DNA of 64,000 bases from the NCBI RefSeq assembly GCF_007828865.1, contig NZ_VIVK01000001.1, forward strand, positions 5,642,001-5,706,000, written 5' to 3'. The position numbers and the translations under genes were made by a program. The stretch is from Kribbella amoyensis. GTDB lineage: Bacteria; Actinomycetota; Actinomycetes; Propionibacteriales; Kribbellaceae. Under the pieces are notes generated by a model. It made no database searches. It was not told the origin of the DNA and saw only the letters and a program-made list of their open reading frames with translations. Position 1 is the first letter of the stretch. The number at the start of each line of letters is the position of its first letter. This document shows positions 3,533 to 14,827 of this stretch, piece by piece.

Positions 3533-4807
3533 ATGGCCACGTCGGACCGTGACTCGGCGGTGCTCGACGAACCGGCGCGTTCCGGTGCGAACCAGTACGA
3601 CCTCGGCTCCTTCAACGAGGCCGTGATCATCGAGACGATCCGGCTGGCGGGCATCATCAGCCGGACCGAGATCTCCCGCCGGACCGGGCTCACCCAGCAG
3701 TCGGTGTCCCGGATCCTGCGCATCCTGCTGCAGCAGGGCCTGCTGGTCGAGGAGGCGCAGGAACGCGCCGAGCGGCTCGGCAAGCCCCGGACGCCGGTCC
3801 GGCTCCGGTCGAACGCGGCGCACGCCGTCGGCATCCACGTCGATCCCGAGCTGCTCACGGTGGCGGTGGTCGACCTGGACGGCACGATCGTGCGCCGCGA
3901 AACGGTCGATCTGGCCGCCGATCTCGACGCCCAGCGCCTGGTCGACCTGGCCGCGGCGACGGTGACCGCTGCCGTCAGCATCAGCCAGGTGGACCAGGCC
4001 TCGGTCCTGGGCGTCGGGGTCGCTGTCCCTGGCCCGATCAACGCGGACGGCACCCTGCTGGACCTGCCGTTGCAGCCGGCCTGGCGCGGGCTGAAGATCC
4101 GCCACCTCCTGCAGGAGAAGCTGAACCACCCGGTCCTGGTGGAGAAGGACGGAACGGCCGCGGCGATCGGTGAACGGTGGATCGGCCGCTCCGCCCGGGC
4201 CCGCGACTTCGCCTATCTCTACCTCGGCACCGGGGTCGGGACCGGGCTGATCCTGAACGGCTCGATCTACCGCGGCGGCACGGCGAACGCAGGCGAGTTC
4301 GGGCAGCTCGCCGCGCTGCGGATGGGGGAGTGGGACGCCACCAAAGGACCGCGGATGATGGCCGAGTGCAATCCGACGGCGTCGTTGCCGGTGATCGCGG
4401 AGAGTTTTGGCTACGTTCAGACCGATCCGACGGCGACCGACGAGGCCAAGCGGTACAAGGCCGCGTGCCGGGCGGCAGCGGACGGCGACAAGGGCGCGCA
4501 GCAGGCGGTGAGCCAGGTCGCCCGGGTGATCGCCCAGGGCGCGGTGGGTCTCGTCGACCTGCTGGACATCGACCTGATCGTGCTGGGCGGACCGGCGTTC
4601 GAGCCGGAGATCGCCGGCACACTGCTCACCGAGATCGACCAGGCGGTGAACTCGTTCCCGATCGCGCGCGGTCCGCGGACGGTCGTCGTCGAGGAGTCGA
4701 TGCTCAAGGCCGACGCGGCGGCGGTCGGGGCTGCGTCGACGATCTTCCACGACGCGTTCACCCCACGGGTCGGTGGCTCCAGCCAGGCCCGTAGGCTGCC
4801 GAAGTGA
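3533..4807 (+). CDS. ROK-family transcriptional repressor
   Basis: 424-residue NagC/Mlc/XylR-type regulator. A winged helix-turn-helix occupies about residues 40-75 (SRTEISRRTGLTQQSVSR), followed by a ROK sugar-kinase-like domain with the phosphate loop LGTGVGTGLILNG and an Asp at 206. The usual zinc site is not intact: the expected His in GEFGH is Gln258 and the Cys-rich CGCGxxGC loop is absent, leaving a single Cys in MAECNP. It likely represses the preceding sugar operon and perhaps the secreted lyase at 6.4-10.3 kb. The start is supported by a GGGAGG ribosome site. Confidence 0.9.
   Translation: MATSDRDSAVLDEPARSGANQYDLGSFNEAVIIETIRLAGIISRTEISRRTGLTQQSVSRILRILLQQGLLVEEAQERAERLGKPRTPVRLRSNAAHAVGIHVDPELLTVAVVDLDGTIVRRETVDLAADLDAQRLVDLAAATVTAAVSISQVDQASVLGVGVAVPGPINADGTLLDLPLQPAWRGLKIRHLLQEKLNHPVLVEKDGTAAAIGERWIGRSARARDFAYLYLGTGVGTGLILNGSIYRGGTANAGEFGQLAALRMGEWDATKGPRMMAECNPTASLPVIAESFGYVQTDPTATDEAKRYKAACRAAADGDKGAQQAVSQVARVIAQGAVGLVDLLDIDLIVLGGPAFEPEIAGTLLTEIDQAVNSFPIARGPRTVVVEESMLKADAAAVGAASTIFHDAFTPRVGGSSQARRLPK
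4792..4797 (+). promoter_or_regulatory. -10 box for leaderless acetyltransferase transcript
   Basis: TAGGCT lies 6 bases before GTG 4804, inside the end of the ROK gene. This is the typical actinobacterial leaderless arrangement and would let the acetyltransferase be transcribed on its own. Confidence 0.5.
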
Positions 4808-6455: not shown

Positions 6456-9400
6456 TGCGCTCCTCTCGGGCAGTGAAATGCGCCGTGAGCACCTGATCCG
6501 TGGTCACTGTGAACGTGTACCCCGGATCGGCCGACACGACCTGCCCGTCGATGGTCCAGTTCCGGAAAACGCTATCCGATCCTGGCGTCGCCGTCGCGGT
6601 GACCTGCGTGCCGACCTCGTAGGTCCCCGGTTCGGACTCGTTGCCGTCCAGCCGCACGGTCCCGTCGCCGTCCGCCTCGGCCGCGATCCGGCGCTGGACC
6701 ACGTTGATCACCATCACGTTGCGCAGTGTCACCGGACCGGTACTGGTCGCGCCGTTGTACCGGGCCAGGTTGGTGGCCTCGACGTCGCCCGTGGTCACCC
6801 GCACCGTGTACCCGTCGGTGCCGAGGTTGTCGGTGCCCAGGTTGAACGCGTCGACCTCGCCGTCGTGCACGACCAGCCCGTCGTGGAAGCCGTACGCGAA
6901 CACGTTGAACAAGGTGAGCCCGGTCGCGCCGTAGACGGTGACGATCTTGGCGATCTTGCGCATGTACTTGTCGATGACGAGCTCGAAGATGCTGCCCTCG
7001 TTCATCCAGTACGGCTGCTGGTACCCGATCCGGGTCACCGCGTTGCCGTTGGACAGCACGCCCTCGATCCGGCCCCCGGTACCGCGGCCGACCGAGATCG
7101 CGTGGTCGAAGAAGGCGCCGGCCACCTTGCGGACGACGAAGCCGTCGTTGCGATACGTGGTGAGGTCGATGCCGTTCCAAGCGTTCGGGAAGCCGGCGTT
7201 GACTACGTACGTCCGGGCGCCGTTGCCGCGGATCGCGTACGGGTAGGGGACCACGCCTTCGGCCTTGCCCGGGTTCTGCTCGGGGTAGAAGACGCGCAGC
7301 CCGCGGATGCCGGAGTTGGCACCGTTGAGCGTGACGAGTGCGGTCGCCGTGTCGGGTGCGTTGGTGCCGCGGCCCTCGAAGGCGTGCAGCACGGTGCCTC
7401 CGCTGGCGCCGCCCTGGTCGCGGTTCGGAACGGCGGAGGCGCCGCGCAGTTCCACCTTGGCGGGGACGCTGAGGTGGCGGGCGATCCGGTACCAGCCGGC
7501 GGGGAGGTAGACGATGCCGCCGCCGTCACGGCCGGCCTTGTCCAGGGCCCGCTGGATCGCTGCGGTGGCGTCGGCGGTGGGCAGGTACCCGACGCCGTGT
7601 GGTGCGTCCACAAGGGTGAGGCTCTTGCGGGCCGGTGCCGGGAGTGAGCGCTGGGTGTACGTCGGCGCGGTGCCGGACATCCGGTGCACGATCCCGGTGA
7701 CTGCTCCCATCGTCTGCGTGCCAGTGATCTTGACGTACCCGCGAGCGTTGTTGCGCACGGCGTACTCGCTGCCCTGGACGTGACCACCGGCCAGCGTCAT
7801 GCCCCAGCGGTCGTCGATCACGTCGACCAGGACGCCGGTCCCGGTCCGCCGGATATCGGGTTCGAGGAAGCTGCCGGTGAACTGGGCCCGCTGACCCGCG
7901 ACGACGTGGATGCCCACCTTGTAGTCGGCCAGCGAGATCCGGTGGAACTGGTCCCACTCGAGGTCGCCGAGGACCAGGCCGGTCCCGTGGGCCCGGGTCC
8001 AGGTGTCCAGCGCGGACCGGGCCGGCGGCTGGTACTTCGCCGGCGCCTGCGCCCAGTACGAGTTGTTGAAGGCAACGTTCTCCCAGGTGCCGACGTCCGC
8101 GCCGTTGTACGCCCGGGCGCCCTCGGACAGGGCGGTGCCGCGGATGTTGCGGAGCGTACTGGACTCGTGCACCTGGCCCGAGCTGGGGGCGTTGCCGCGG
8201 TCGTTCGGCATCGTGCTGATCCCGATCCCGCGGTACGAGTTGAGCAGGGTGACGTCCTGGACGGTCGCCATCATGTAGTTCTCGTTCCCGATCCAGGCGC
8301 CACCGGGGATCTCGAACGTGTAGTTGTACGGGACCGGGCTGGTCGCACTCTGCCGCGGGTACCAGGTGGTCACGCCGATCACGCCGGCCGAACCGCCGAT
8401 CCGGAACAGGCTGGGCCCGTCGTCACCGGACGCCAGATCCGCGATCACGACCGTGCCGTAGTCACCCGGGCCGGCCGCGTCCGGGTCACGCCGATCACCA
8501 CGCAGCGTGCAGAATGCGTGCACCTCGACGGTGTCCTTCACCAGGTACCGCCCGGCCGGCAGCCAGACCGTACCGCCGCCCGCATCCTGGCAGGCGTAGA
8601 TCGCGTTCTGGATCGCCTTCGTCGAATCGGTGCGGCCAGTACGGTCGGCGCCGTACCGGGTGGCGTCGAAGTCGGCGACGACGCCGTCCTCAGTCGGGTT
8701 GACGGTCGGTACCAGCTTCGGCTGCGGGACGACGACGGGCGACTCGCGCAGCTGCAGCTCCTTGACGCTGTAGCCCTGGGCACCGGTCATCACCACGCGG
8801 ACGTACCGGGTCTTGGTGGTGGCGAAGCGGGTCTTGCTGAACTGGTTCGCGCCGGGTGACCCGGTCCGGCCGACGGTGGTGAAGTTGCGGCCGTCGTTCG
8901 AGAGCTGGACGGTGTAGTCCGGTGAGGAGGACTGCGCCCACTCGACGCGGACGTCGTTCACCGGCCGCTGCCGGCCGAGGTCGACCTGGAGCCAGGTGTT
9001 CGCGGACTCGCTGGACCAGGCTGTGGTGTGGTTGCTGTCGTTGACGTTGGTGGCCCCGCTGCCGTCCGCGGCGGTCGCGGTACCGGTCGGTGCGAAGTTG
9101 GTGTCGACGATCGAGGCGTTGAAGGCGTCGAGCTTCGCTTGGAGGTTGCCGAGCGCCGCCGTGACCTGGACGTCGGTGACACCCGGCGTGGTGGCGACCG
9201 CGCGGGCCTCGTCGATCGCGGTGAGCAGGACCGCGCGGCTGCCGGTCGGGTACTGCCCGTCGCGAGTTCCTTCCCGGGCGGACTTCTGGGCGCGGGTGGC
9301 CTCGTCGATCAGCTCGACCAGGCCCTCGGTGACGTCGAGGGTGCCGGCCACCTTGGCGACACGAACCGCCGCGACCTTCAGATCGACCGCACCGTTGCCG

Positions 9401-11788: not shown

Positions 11789-12220
11789 TCAGGCGACGCC
11801 GACGAGGGTGCGGTCGGGGTGCTGCGTGGCGGGGGCTTCGGTGGTTGCGCTCAGCAGGGTGAAGAAGTGCGGCGCGGCGTCGACCAGGGGGAGCAGGCCG
11901 GCTTCGTGGCCGGTCCAGCCGAAGAGGAGTTCGCCGTCGATGACGTCTTCGGTGAGTGGGCTGGCGTACGCGCTCAGGGTGACGCGGTTCGGGCCGAGGT
12001 GCGGGTGGTGGTCGCCGCAGCCGCACTCGGGGGCGATCACGATCGACGTGAGCGCGGTCGCGGCGTACCGGCGCAGGCGCAGCGTGGTGCCGCGGGCGGT
12101 GAAGCGGGCGATCGTTGCGTCAGGCAACTGTACGAGCAGCTCGACCGGTACGGCGTGCGAGCCGGGCAGCAGCCGCAGGCCGCGGGAAGCGAGCAGGTCG
12201 CCGAAGACAGACAGGTTCAT
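11789..12220 (-). CDS. Hypothetical protein with CGCGDHH motif
   Basis: 143-residue protein I do not recognise. It starts MNLSVFGDLLASRGLRLL and contains a compact Cys/His cluster (ECGCGDHHPH) that could bind metal, followed by a hydrophobic ELLFGWTGHEAGLLPL segment. An in-frame start 19 codons upstream is possible; I prefer ATG 12220 because homologous-looking sequence begins there. The gene lies 84 bases downstream of a possible polycysteine leader peptide on the same strand, so its expression may respond to cysteine supply (inference). Confidence 0.6.
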   Translation of the reverse strand: MNLSVFGDLLASRGLRLLPGSHAVPVELLVQLPDATIARFTARGTTLRLRRYAATALTSIVIAPECGCGDHHPHLGPNRVTLSAYASPLTEDVIDGELLFGWTGHEAGLLPLVDAAPHFFTLLSATTEAPATQHPDRTLVGVA

Positions 12221-12304
12221 TGCGGAGAATCCGGAATTCTGTGGGTGCTGGTGTCGGCAGGCGGGCCGGATGGGCAAGGCCTCGTACGCCGGTGACGGCG
12301 CGCG

Positions 12305-12355
12305 TCAGCGACAACAACAGCAACAACACAGCATGAACCGCATGCGGAAGATCAT
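12305..12355 (-). CDS. Possible polycysteine leader peptide (16 aa)
   Basis: A short reading frame encodes MIFRMRFMLCCCCCCR followed by TGA. Six consecutive Cys codons (five TGT and one TGC) are striking in such GC-rich DNA, where TGT is rare. Starts at 12355 or 12343 are both possible; a G-rich stretch precedes the first. Polycysteine short frames act as cysteine-responsive attenuators in mycobacteria, and this one precedes a same-strand gene starting at 12220. The opposite strand of the tract would read as polyglutamine, which I consider a shadow. Confidence 0.5.
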   Translation of the reverse strand: MIFRMRFMLCCCCCCR

Positions 12356-12545
12356 GGCAGACCCGCCCCACCCCACCAAACAGATCCCACCATCCGAGAC
12401 GCCATTCCATGATGTGTCAGCTAGACGGCGGTGATAGCCGCGGACCTGGGTGCGCGACCGTGGCGCCGGGGTGGCGCATCCAGCACCCACTGACGCGTTG
12501 TTTCACCACTGCCGTGTTGCAGCACGACAGTCAGCCCAACAAGCC

Positions 12546-12571
12546 GCCAGCGACCCAGCTCGGCCGCTGGC
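12546..12571 (-). terminator. Weak hairpin downstream of sepH
   Basis: GCCAGCG (12546-12552) pairs with CGCTGGC (12565-12571) around a 12-base loop, 21 bases past the sepH stop. There is no real T tract, so termination is only a suggestion. Confidence 0.3.
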
Positions 12572-12592
12572 TGGCTGTCCCTTGGTCGGGGG

Positions 12593-14827
12593 TCAGTCGG
12601 CCTTCTTGCCGAACATGATCTCGTCCCAGCTGGGGACGCTGGCTCGCTTGGAGTTGCGGCGGGCCGGCTTCTTCTTGGGGGGTTCGGCCTGCGGCTGGTC
12701 GGCTTCGGCTGCGGGTGCTGCGGCCGCAGACTGCGCGGGAGCCTCGGTGGCTTGGCGGGCGCCGACTGGTTGGGGCTGGTCGCTGTTGCGTGCTGCGGGA
12801 GCCGCGGGGCGGGGCGTCGGGTCGGCGGATTGGCCCGGTGTACCCGTGGTGGGCTGGGGCCGCTTGTCTGCGCGGGGATCGCGGGGGACCGGGCGCGAGG
12901 GGTCGCGGCGTGGGTCGGACGGGCGTGCGGTTACCGGGTCGCCTGGGCTCGCGAAGTCCGTACCCGTAGCTGCGGTGGTCGACCCGGCCGACCGTGTCCC
13001 GGCGTCCGCGGTGTCCGACTGTGCAGTGTCGGCGCGTGCGGTGCCAGTCCGTGCGGCGTCGGTGCGTGCAGTGTCGGCGCGTGCGGCGTCGGTGCGTGCG
13101 GTGCCGGTGGCGTCGGTGTCGCTGGCGGCTGTGGTTGCTCGTGCGGTCTGGCCGTTGATGGGGGTGGGCGCCGAGGCCTCTTCGTCGCCGTTGAGCTCGG
13201 GGTGGCGAGGGTCGGCTGGGCGGGGGCCGGTGGTGTGGAGTTCGGGGTGGCGCGGGTCGACGGGCTTGCCGTTGCTCTGAGCAGTCGGGCGCGCTTGGCC
13301 CTGTGCCGAAGTCGCCTCGGCCGGCTGCGTGTCCCGGTCAGCTTCGAACAGTTGCGGCGCTGGCTGCTCCGCTTGCGCTTCTTCGGCTGCGCGGGCTTGG
13401 GCGGCGCGCTGCATCTCGGTGAGGCGCGTGGGGGTGTTGTCCCTGGATGGGCGTGCGCTGACGCGGTCCGACGTGCCGGTCGCGCGCGCTGCAGCGTGAT
13501 CCAGAGCGTCGGTGGCCGGAACGGTCGCCTGGTCCGGCGAGTCAGTTCCGCGCGCGCTGATCTCATCCGGAGCGTCGTCGGAGGTGGCCGCTTCGGTGTC
13601 GTCGGGGCGGTCGGCGAACGGGTTGGCGGCGGACTCTTCCGGCGGGCGCTGGGCTGGGCGCTCTACTGCGCGAACTGCTGGGCGCAGGGCGGGCGGGGGT
13701 TCGATCGGGACGTCGATGAGGGTCGGTTCGTCGTCGGGGCTCGGGACCGGGTGGACTCGGCGGGGACCGCGGTCGTCGCGGCGACCGAAGCCTTCGCGGG
13801 CGGACTCGCGGCCGAAGTCACGACCACCCTGCTCGCGGCCGAACTCCCGGCCGCCGACCTCACGTCCGGCGATGTCCCGGCCGGGGAACTCGCGGGCGCC
13901 GCTCTCACGACCAGCGTCACGACCAGCGTCACGGCCGGCATCCCGGCTGGCATCCCGGCCGCTCGGCCCGGAACCCTCACGTCCGAAGGCTTCCCGGCCA
14001 TACCCGTCACGAGCACCGGACTCACGACCGGCTCCGTCACGTCCGGACCCGTCACGGCCGAAGGACTCGCGGGAGGCGTCGCGGGCGGCTTGGCGGACCC
14101 GGGTGAGGTTGACCGTGTCCTCGAAGCCGGCCTCGTAGCTGTCGGCGCCGTGGTCGGGGGCGAGGCTGTGGTCGAAGTCGGCGACGGCGGTGAGGCGGCG
14201 TTCGGTCTGCTGCGGGGCGGCGATGACCTGGGGCTGTTCGCCGACCAGCCAGCGGGCTTCGTCGTCGTCGGGGACCGCGTACCGCCCGGGGGCGTCGTAC
14301 GCGAACATGGCGACCTTCTCTTCCTTGTTCTCCTCGTCCTCGCCGGGGACGGGGTAGGAGACGCGGACGGCCCAGCGGCCGTCCTCGCGACGCCAGGCGT
14401 CCCACTCGGCGGCGGCCGGGTCGACGCCGCGGATCCGCAGCCGCTCGGTGACCCAGGCACCGAGGTTGCGGGTCGGGGCGTCGGCGCCACCGCGGCGCCG
14501 GACGGAGGCGCGCTGGGCGAGGCTGGCGACGTGGTCGCGCTCGGCGAGGACGGGGCCGGCGAACGCCATCACGCGTTCCATCGGCATCTGGGCGACCGCG
14601 GCCACCGCTTCGACACTTTCGCCCGCGCGGATGCGAGCTTGGATGTCTCGTGGGCGCAGCGCGCTCTCCATTTGAATCTCCAGCTGGCCGAGTCGGGCAC
14701 GGTCGCCGCGCAGGGCCGCACGCAACCGGTCGTCGACCGGGACGGCGAACTCCTCACCCGTCTCCGCCATCGCCAGGATGAGCTGGGTGCCATCCTGGCT
14801 CAGACCGACGAGTTTCGCCTCGCGCAT
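12593..14827 (-). CDS. sepH: Septation protein SepH
   Basis: 744-residue SepH homologue (DUF3071), which in Streptomyces and Mycobacterium stimulates FtsZ assembly at division sites. The N-terminal DUF3071 domain spans about residues 1-165, with a helix-turn-helix-like part near 58-95. Then comes a long, low-complexity, charged linker including a Gly-Arg-Asp/Glu repeat (249-353) and a Thr-Ala-Arg-Asp repeat (575-608). The conserved C-terminal tail RASVPSWDEIMFGKK is intact. The linker is much longer than in typical SepH proteins of roughly 350-400 residues. An AGGAGA site precedes ATG 14827. Confidence 0.93.
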   Translation of the reverse strand: MREAKLVGLSQDGTQLILAMAETGEEFAVPVDDRLRAALRGDRARLGQLEIQMESALRPRDIQARIRAGESVEAVAAVAQMPMERVMAFAGPVLAERDHVASLAQRASVRRRGGADAPTRNLGAWVTERLRIRGVDPAAAEWDAWRREDGRWAVRVSYPVPGEDEENKEEKVAMFAYDAPGRYAVPDDDEARWLVGEQPQVIAAPQQTERRLTAVADFDHSLAPDHGADSYEAGFEDTVNLTRVRQAARDASRESFGRDGSGRDGAGRESGARDGYGREAFGREGSGPSGRDASRDAGRDAGRDAGRESGAREFPGRDIAGREVGGREFGREQGGRDFGRESAREGFGRRDDRGPRRVHPVPSPDDEPTLIDVPIEPPPALRPAVRAVERPAQRPPEESAANPFADRPDDTEAATSDDAPDEISARGTDSPDQATVPATDALDHAAARATGTSDRVSARPSRDNTPTRLTEMQRAAQARAAEEAQAEQPAPQLFEADRDTQPAEATSAQGQARPTAQSNGKPVDPRHPELHTTGPRPADPRHPELNGDEEASAPTPINGQTARATTAASDTDATGTARTDAARADTARTDAARTGTARADTAQSDTADAGTRSAGSTTAATGTDFASPGDPVTARPSDPRRDPSRPVPRDPRADKRPQPTTGTPGQSADPTPRPAAPAARNSDQPQPVGARQATEAPAQSAAAAPAAEADQPQAEPPKKKPARRNSKRASVPSWDEIMFGKKAD
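13004..13105 (-). repeat. sepH linker repeat, TAR(T/A)D type
   Basis: Short degenerate tandem units encoding TARTDAARADTARTDAAR-like sequence (SepH residues 575-608). It is a coding repeat in a disordered linker, likely variable in length between strains. Confidence 0.6.
13769..14083 (-). repeat. sepH linker repeat, G-R-D/E type
   Basis: About 105 residues (SepH 249-353) built from GRDG, GRESG, DAGR and FGRE units, highly charged and Gly/Arg-rich. Probably intrinsically disordered. Confidence 0.65.

Follow-up and report, generated by a model that had tools for sequence, protein, structure and literature searches.

A candidate cysteine-responsive attenuator with a polycysteine leader frame ahead of an uncharacterised gene in Kribbella and other Actinobacteria

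Results and Discussion

Analysis of a 64,000-nucleotide stretch of the Kribbella amoyensis genome (contig NZ_VIVK01000001.1, in the following called the window) reveals a short minus-strand frame with six consecutive cysteine codons ahead of a gene for an uncharacterised protein, and at the loci examined the intact gene is always found behind a Cys-codon leader. This arrangement is likely to be a translational attenuator that responds to cysteine and belongs to the polycysteine leaderless short open reading frame (sORF) kind. Attenuators of this kind were reportedly described in Mycobacterium smegmatis by Canestrari et al. 2020 (10.1111/mmi.14498). The attenuation mechanism is already known; the target gene is apparently new as its client.

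The leader frame and its upstream elements

The initial annotation described a 16-codon minus-strand frame with six Cys codons, five of them TGT, just before the stop and 84 nt ahead of a same-strand gene whose product contains ECGCGDHH. All of this is confirmed in the sequence: the frame from ATG 12355 to TGA 12307-12305 encodes MIFRMRFMLCCCCCCR, and its stop lies 84 nt from the ATG (12220) of the target gene (12220-11789). The start has to be revised. While the reading from ATG 12355 exists, the second ATG at 12343 is the more likely start, because five of the related leaders (L004, L006, L028, L029 and L046) carry ATC in place of the first ATG and have kept the second one together with the Cys run. 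The leader sORF would then be MRFMLCCCCCCR (12305-12343, minus strand), with 12 codons. Its Cys codons, the proposed cysteine sensor (12311-12328, minus strand), read TGT TGT TGC TGT TGT TGT, are followed by one Arg codon and the stop, and are kept in position among relatives.

A -10-like box, CATGAT (12351-12356, minus strand), lies 7 nt upstream of the start codon 12343, and 18 nt upstream of this box a weak -35-like TTTGGT (12375-12380, minus strand) can be recognised by eye. A scan for sigma-70 consensus promoters gave no site at the sORF leader. Judging from the spacing of the -10-like box, the transcript would begin at the start codon, and the sORF is probably leaderless. Directly 3' of the stop codon a hairpin is predicted (12283-12304, minus strand), with consensus pairs from 34 Kribbella leaders. 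The predicted pairing partner of the Cys codons, CGACACCAGCACCCACAG (12239-12256, minus strand), abuts the Shine-Dalgarno (SD) region with its 3' end. The window leader lacks AGGA and has CACAGAATT there instead. A pairing specific to the window is predicted between GGTTCAT in sORF codons 2-4 (12333-12339, minus strand) and AUGAACC at 12220-12214; as the latter contains the start codon of the target, the predicted block covers the start codon itself.

Background frequency of cysteine codon runs

To judge how often such runs arise, runs of TGY codons were counted in the whole genome (8.1 Mb). Five consecutive TGY codons gave 11 matches at 7 places (4 in the reversed control), and four consecutive TGY codons are not enriched, with 102 matches against 100 in the reversed control. 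In a set of 41 run loci, comprising all 11 five-codon runs and 30 of the 102 four-codon runs, only two are close to the 3' end of a frame that has a potential start codon: the window sORF and one run of four Cys codons. We further used a scan rule demanding a -10-like box, a spacer of 5-8 nt, a start codon and a frame of at most about 40 codons with at least three Cys per six codons. In the 64 kb window this rule gave two matches, the sORF and an Arg/Cys/Pro-rich frame at 6726 on the plus strand. On both strands of 92 target loci (628,590 strand-bases) it gave 85 matches, one per locus and all of them the leader of the target; as the loci are related these matches are not independent, and it is the lack of any other match that carries information. 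The rule missed seven loci, where the spacer is longer, the box does not match or the six-codon window holds fewer Cys. That four-codon TGY runs are common in the genome could point to a functionless chance frame, an explanation with a negligible probability in view of the zero background in the 92-locus scan and the conservation described below. The Cys run of the window is a real observation and not a product of chance.

Conservation of the leader across genomes

Every one of the 36 Kribbella genomes in a first sample has the target gene, and so do all eight genomes of the Actinopolymorpha family. A wider sample of the order added one Kribbella and three Nocardioidaceae-type genomes, and one further genome of the latter type is Nocardioides iriomotensis. 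From a sample of the class came another 33 genomes of a family taken as Frankiaceae, since the named matches are Frankia and relatives; in all, 35 of 394 genomes matched. A search of plasmids gave no match. Before counting, a degraded copy (L050, genome G019) and a weak match that contains stops and lacks a sORF (G741) were dropped. One locus (L019) ends at a contig end. Of the 33 Frankia-type genomes 28 were read and five with matches left out; the 39 Frankia-type loci come from these 28 genomes of one collection and 11 contigs of another, with some genomes repeated.

The initial annotation had suggested looking for the Cys run in relatives. The run is kept ahead of 50 out of 50 intact homologues from three families: a Cys-rich frame precedes the target at 38 of 38 Kribbella, eight of eight Actinopolymorpha-type and four of four Nocardioidaceae-type loci, the last with MHHLCCRCR, MSHLCCRCR, MLHLCCRCR and MTFLCCRCR. 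In the fourth family a different, probably leaderless Cys-containing frame lies ahead of the homologues at 39 of 39 loci. This leader conservation across families is apparently new.

In 45 leaders of the Kribbella and Actinopolymorpha types the longest consecutive Cys run comprises 3-7 codons, and the distance from the start to the first Cys is 4, 5, 6 or 8 codons, the Cys frame always being kept. The stop lies 58-100 nt from the gene, in all three phases. A -10-like box [TC]ANNNT is found 5-8 nt ahead of the (second) start in 42 of the 45; the exceptions are L005, cut short in the test with the box visible, L047 with AATGAT, and L029 with a 10-nt spacer. A conserved, Cys-dense peptide might also be a functional Cys-rich micropeptide that is expressed together with the target and binds, e.g., metals or thiols. 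We hold this to be very improbable, because the frame varies in these leaders between 10 and 13 codons with 4-7 Cys, the flanking residues are freely variable, the Frankia-type peptides are unrelated, and the peptide is encoded in RNA predicted to pair with the ribosome-binding region of the target.

Predicted pairing and modelled stalling

The reading as a polycysteine attenuator, already proposed in the initial annotation, gains support from this predicted pairing. For 34 distinct Kribbella leaders RNAalifold predicts pairing between the Cys codons and a ACACCAGC-type arm, as well as a hairpin past the stop. Formal covariation is weak: double changes occur in 3 of 22 pairs of the Kribbella alignment (covariation term -0.42) and in 5 of 24 pairs of the eight Actinopolymorpha-type leaders (+1.06). 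By eye, co-changing pairing partners can be seen in Actinopolymorpha- and Nocardioidaceae-type leaders, for example in L056 (GGCGUCCU/AGGACGCC), L052 (GACGUCCU/AGGACGUC) and L053 (GGGUCC/GGACCC).

In every one of the 45 leaders the sORF is predicted to form a stronger duplex with the ribosome-binding region than mononucleotide shuffles do on average (mean z -2.40). For the Nocardioidaceae-type leaders the z values are -1.97, 0.46, -2.61 and -3.39, and the duplex beats the shuffles in three of the four. Swapping partners within Kribbella gives duplexes no weaker than the native ones (-26.2 vs -25.95); among five Actinopolymorpha-type representatives the native partner is the best in four of five rows.

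When a ribosome is modelled on the Cys codons, 42 of 45 leaders (34 of 37 Kribbella and eight of eight Actinopolymorpha-type) need over 0.5 kcal/mol less energy to open the ribosome-binding region. On average this opening energy falls from 12.0 to 5.3 kcal/mol for the best Cys position and to 5.9 kcal/mol as the mean over the Cys positions, and for the window leader from 9.9 to 5.7 kcal/mol. A modelled ribosome at the stop codon lowers the energy as well, to 8.1 kcal/mol on average. Masking 30 nt of the linker has this effect in 11 of the 45, yet in seven of the eight Actinopolymorpha-type leaders, the stall mask and the linker mask being of unequal lengths. In the Nocardioidaceae-type leaders stalling lowers the opening energy, and the linker mask does so too (four of four), more strongly in L183. 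Stalling raises the probability that the SD hexamer is unpaired in no more than 26 of 45 leaders (19 of 37 Kribbella, seven of eight Actinopolymorpha-type), and in the window leader this probability falls from 0.61 to 0.40. In these models, judged by opening energy, the sORF RNA is predicted to mask the ribosome-binding site of the target and stalling to relieve the masking.

The switch would probably work as follows. Transcription would start at or beside AUG 12343, as suggested by the -10 spacing, and this leaderless AUG would be where a ribosome initiates. If Cys-tRNA is plentiful, the ribosome would read the Cys codons, terminate and depart, so that the freed Cys run and the codons preceding it could pair just before or over the ribosome-binding site or the start codon of the target, which in this paired state would be poorly translated. 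Under cysteine shortage the ribosome would stall on the Cys codons and block the pairing, and the target would be translated. Stalling, cysteine as the signal and the direction of control are what we infer from the leader.

Frankia-type leaders

The Frankia-type genomes carry another form of leader. Compared with the pairing 12-codon poly-Cys form of the Propionibacteriales it is long and Cys/Pro/Arg-rich, with a total length of 254-588 nt and a frame of about 31-39 codons. At 38 of 39 loci a rule-based search finds a GTG-started frame 6-7 nt past CATAAT, e.g. VTLRLQHGAAPHRGWRVVCRPGSCPCCPSPRAH, ending 161-489 nt upstream of the target; the frame of L070 contains two Cys only. At the remaining locus, L076, MSSRSAPTRGVAAWAAGPAMLRPGCCCCRDPRPAVAGAAGHEGARAV was recognised by eye. 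Across the set (L062-L089 and L107-L117) the GTG frames lie 250-590 nt upstream of the target and have PRAH- or PRVR-like, Cys/Pro/Arg-rich tails. A lack of sORFs ahead of Frankia-type homologues was considered and rejected: 400-450 nt of upstream sequence had not revealed the frames, and 800 nt did.

The leaders tested, from 21 of the 39 loci, show no preference of the sORF for the SD region as pairing partner (z -1.44 to 2.08), and direct SD pairing is unsupported in them. Six Frankia-type frames gave no match to the NCBIfam leader models. If the Frankia types are attenuators, their coupling must be other than direct SD masking, because the leaders are long and without SD pairing. This suggests that the Frankia form has retained the sensing of cysteine with a changed coupling mechanism.

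These leaders bear on two other explanations. Their length of several hundred nucleotides without SD pairing would fit a leader that acts on transcription, through a terminator or Rho, and not on translation initiation. For the leader as a whole we regard this as unlikely, since the sole terminator-like site in the vicinity of the window leader is a stem of five pairs within the sORF and the hairpin past the stop has no U-run. It could also be that an RNA structure is conserved, in which TGT and TGC persist because the ACACCAGC-type arm pairs with them, the cysteine being incidental. Two observations agree with this: the third Cys codon keeps its paired GC but not its first base, so that Cys, Arg or Ser can stand there, and the predominance of TGT over TGC (197 vs 44 in the 45 leaders) agrees with the pairing partner. 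Nevertheless a purely structural cause appears improbable, somewhat more so than an action on transcription, because Cys codons outside the consensus pairs (the first of the run) are also retained and the Frankia-type leaders, of unrelated sequence and without pairing, still contain Cys and keep the frame. That their Cys content is kept without shared sequence or pairing favours cysteine as the signal and disfavours a purely structural reason for TGT, in line with a cysteine-responsive attenuator.

Comparison with known attenuators

Leader-peptide attenuators of the trp and his type contain a run of codons for the sensed amino acid and classically end transcription. The codon run is alike in the Kribbella leader; the proposed mechanism differs in being a masking of initiation and not an end of transcription. 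In M. smegmatis, short leaderless frames in which Cys codons follow one another directly are reported to attenuate downstream genes in a cysteine-dependent manner (PMC9031893, PMC9094748, PMC13236596). The Kribbella leader resembles these attenuators in that a short frame with a run of Cys codons, probably leaderless, closely precedes the controlled gene, and in that a stalled ribosome is predicted to relieve the masking of the SD. It differs from them in its peptides and genera, and in having an uncharacterised target outside the recognised sulfur and cysteine genes.

The NCBIfam models for Cys leaders, NF042936 (Ms4527A), NF042933 (Ms5788A) and NF042934 (cis_reg_atten), likewise have Cys codons within a short leader peptide, and none matched the 61-aa frame holding the window sORF or eight of its relatives. 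An Rfam covariance search of 12000-12600 gave no match at E up to 1. With a covariance model built from the Kribbella leaders and stricter filters, only the K. amoyensis genome itself and N. iriomotensis were found among 394 genomes, and no other gene.

Elsewhere in the K. amoyensis genome (L151, about 4213-4308, plus strand) a leader MLAALTTHLVGRIHVDLGRMRSAICCPSTF lies upstream of sulfite reductase at 4451. It reaches 25.7 bits with NF042934, below the cutoff of 27, matches NF042936 weakly, and is a classical actinobacterial Cys (CC) leader ahead of a sulfite reductase operon. Near two PAPS-reductase/cysD regions of this genome no frame with three Cys per six codons and a -10 box was found.

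The target protein and its genomic neighbourhood

The target gene (11789-12220, minus strand) encodes 143 amino acids. Its initial annotation as hypothetical is borne out: neither Pfam nor NCBIfam gives a match at E up to 1, and with Pfam on 32 homologues the best E is 0.013, in two members. AlphaFold2 predicts, with good confidence, a small alpha/beta fold (mean pLDDT 88.9, pTM 0.78). A sequence profile search of the PDB gave one match at E 0.66, and Foldseek with the model none at E 0.001 or better. CapZ alpha, from the best VIA-align rows (Z 6.6, 86 aligned residues, rmsd 3.5), is too weak to be accepted as a structural relative. The ECGCGDHH cluster, mentioned in the initial annotation, does not belong to the regulatory link, because CxC occurs in none of the 39 Frankia-type proteins and the Cys leader is kept. 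A literature search, with subscription journals and supplements outside its coverage, yielded no paper on the target.

From the leader we infer that the protein may serve under cysteine shortage. It is about evenly balanced whether the family represents an unrecognised actinobacterial cysteine-shortage protein whose leader was rebuilt at least once, the control by cysteine being older or more strongly selected than the sequence and mechanism of the leader. The attenuator itself would extend a mycobacterial regulatory device to Kribbella and to Actinopolymorpha-, Nocardioidaceae- and Frankia-type genomes, and cysteine shortage would be a testable first clue to the role of a nameless conserved protein family.

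The target is probably transcribed alone, because its downstream neighbour in the window, an erythromycin-esterase gene (PF05139), is convergent. At the three Actinopolymorpha loci examined this convergent position is instead taken by a rhodanese-domain sulfurtransferase gene with two rhodanese stretches (minus strand; L104 3437-4372, L105 3420-4700, L106 3439-4539), a weak hint of a role in sulfur metabolism. The degraded copy L050 (G019:C1:4108382-4110239) is a second copy of the target about 9 kb from the intact one and has no sORF.

Upstream of the leader, and outside the switch, lies sepH (12593-14827, minus strand; NCBIfam NF040712 SepH, 243 bits, cutoff 40). Its C-terminal motif was found at none of the 39 Frankia-type loci, and upstream on the same strand at 44 of 62 Propionibacteriales loci (1-3 kb searched, some genomes repeated). 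The SepH protein of the window has a long linker with many GRD/GRE repeats.
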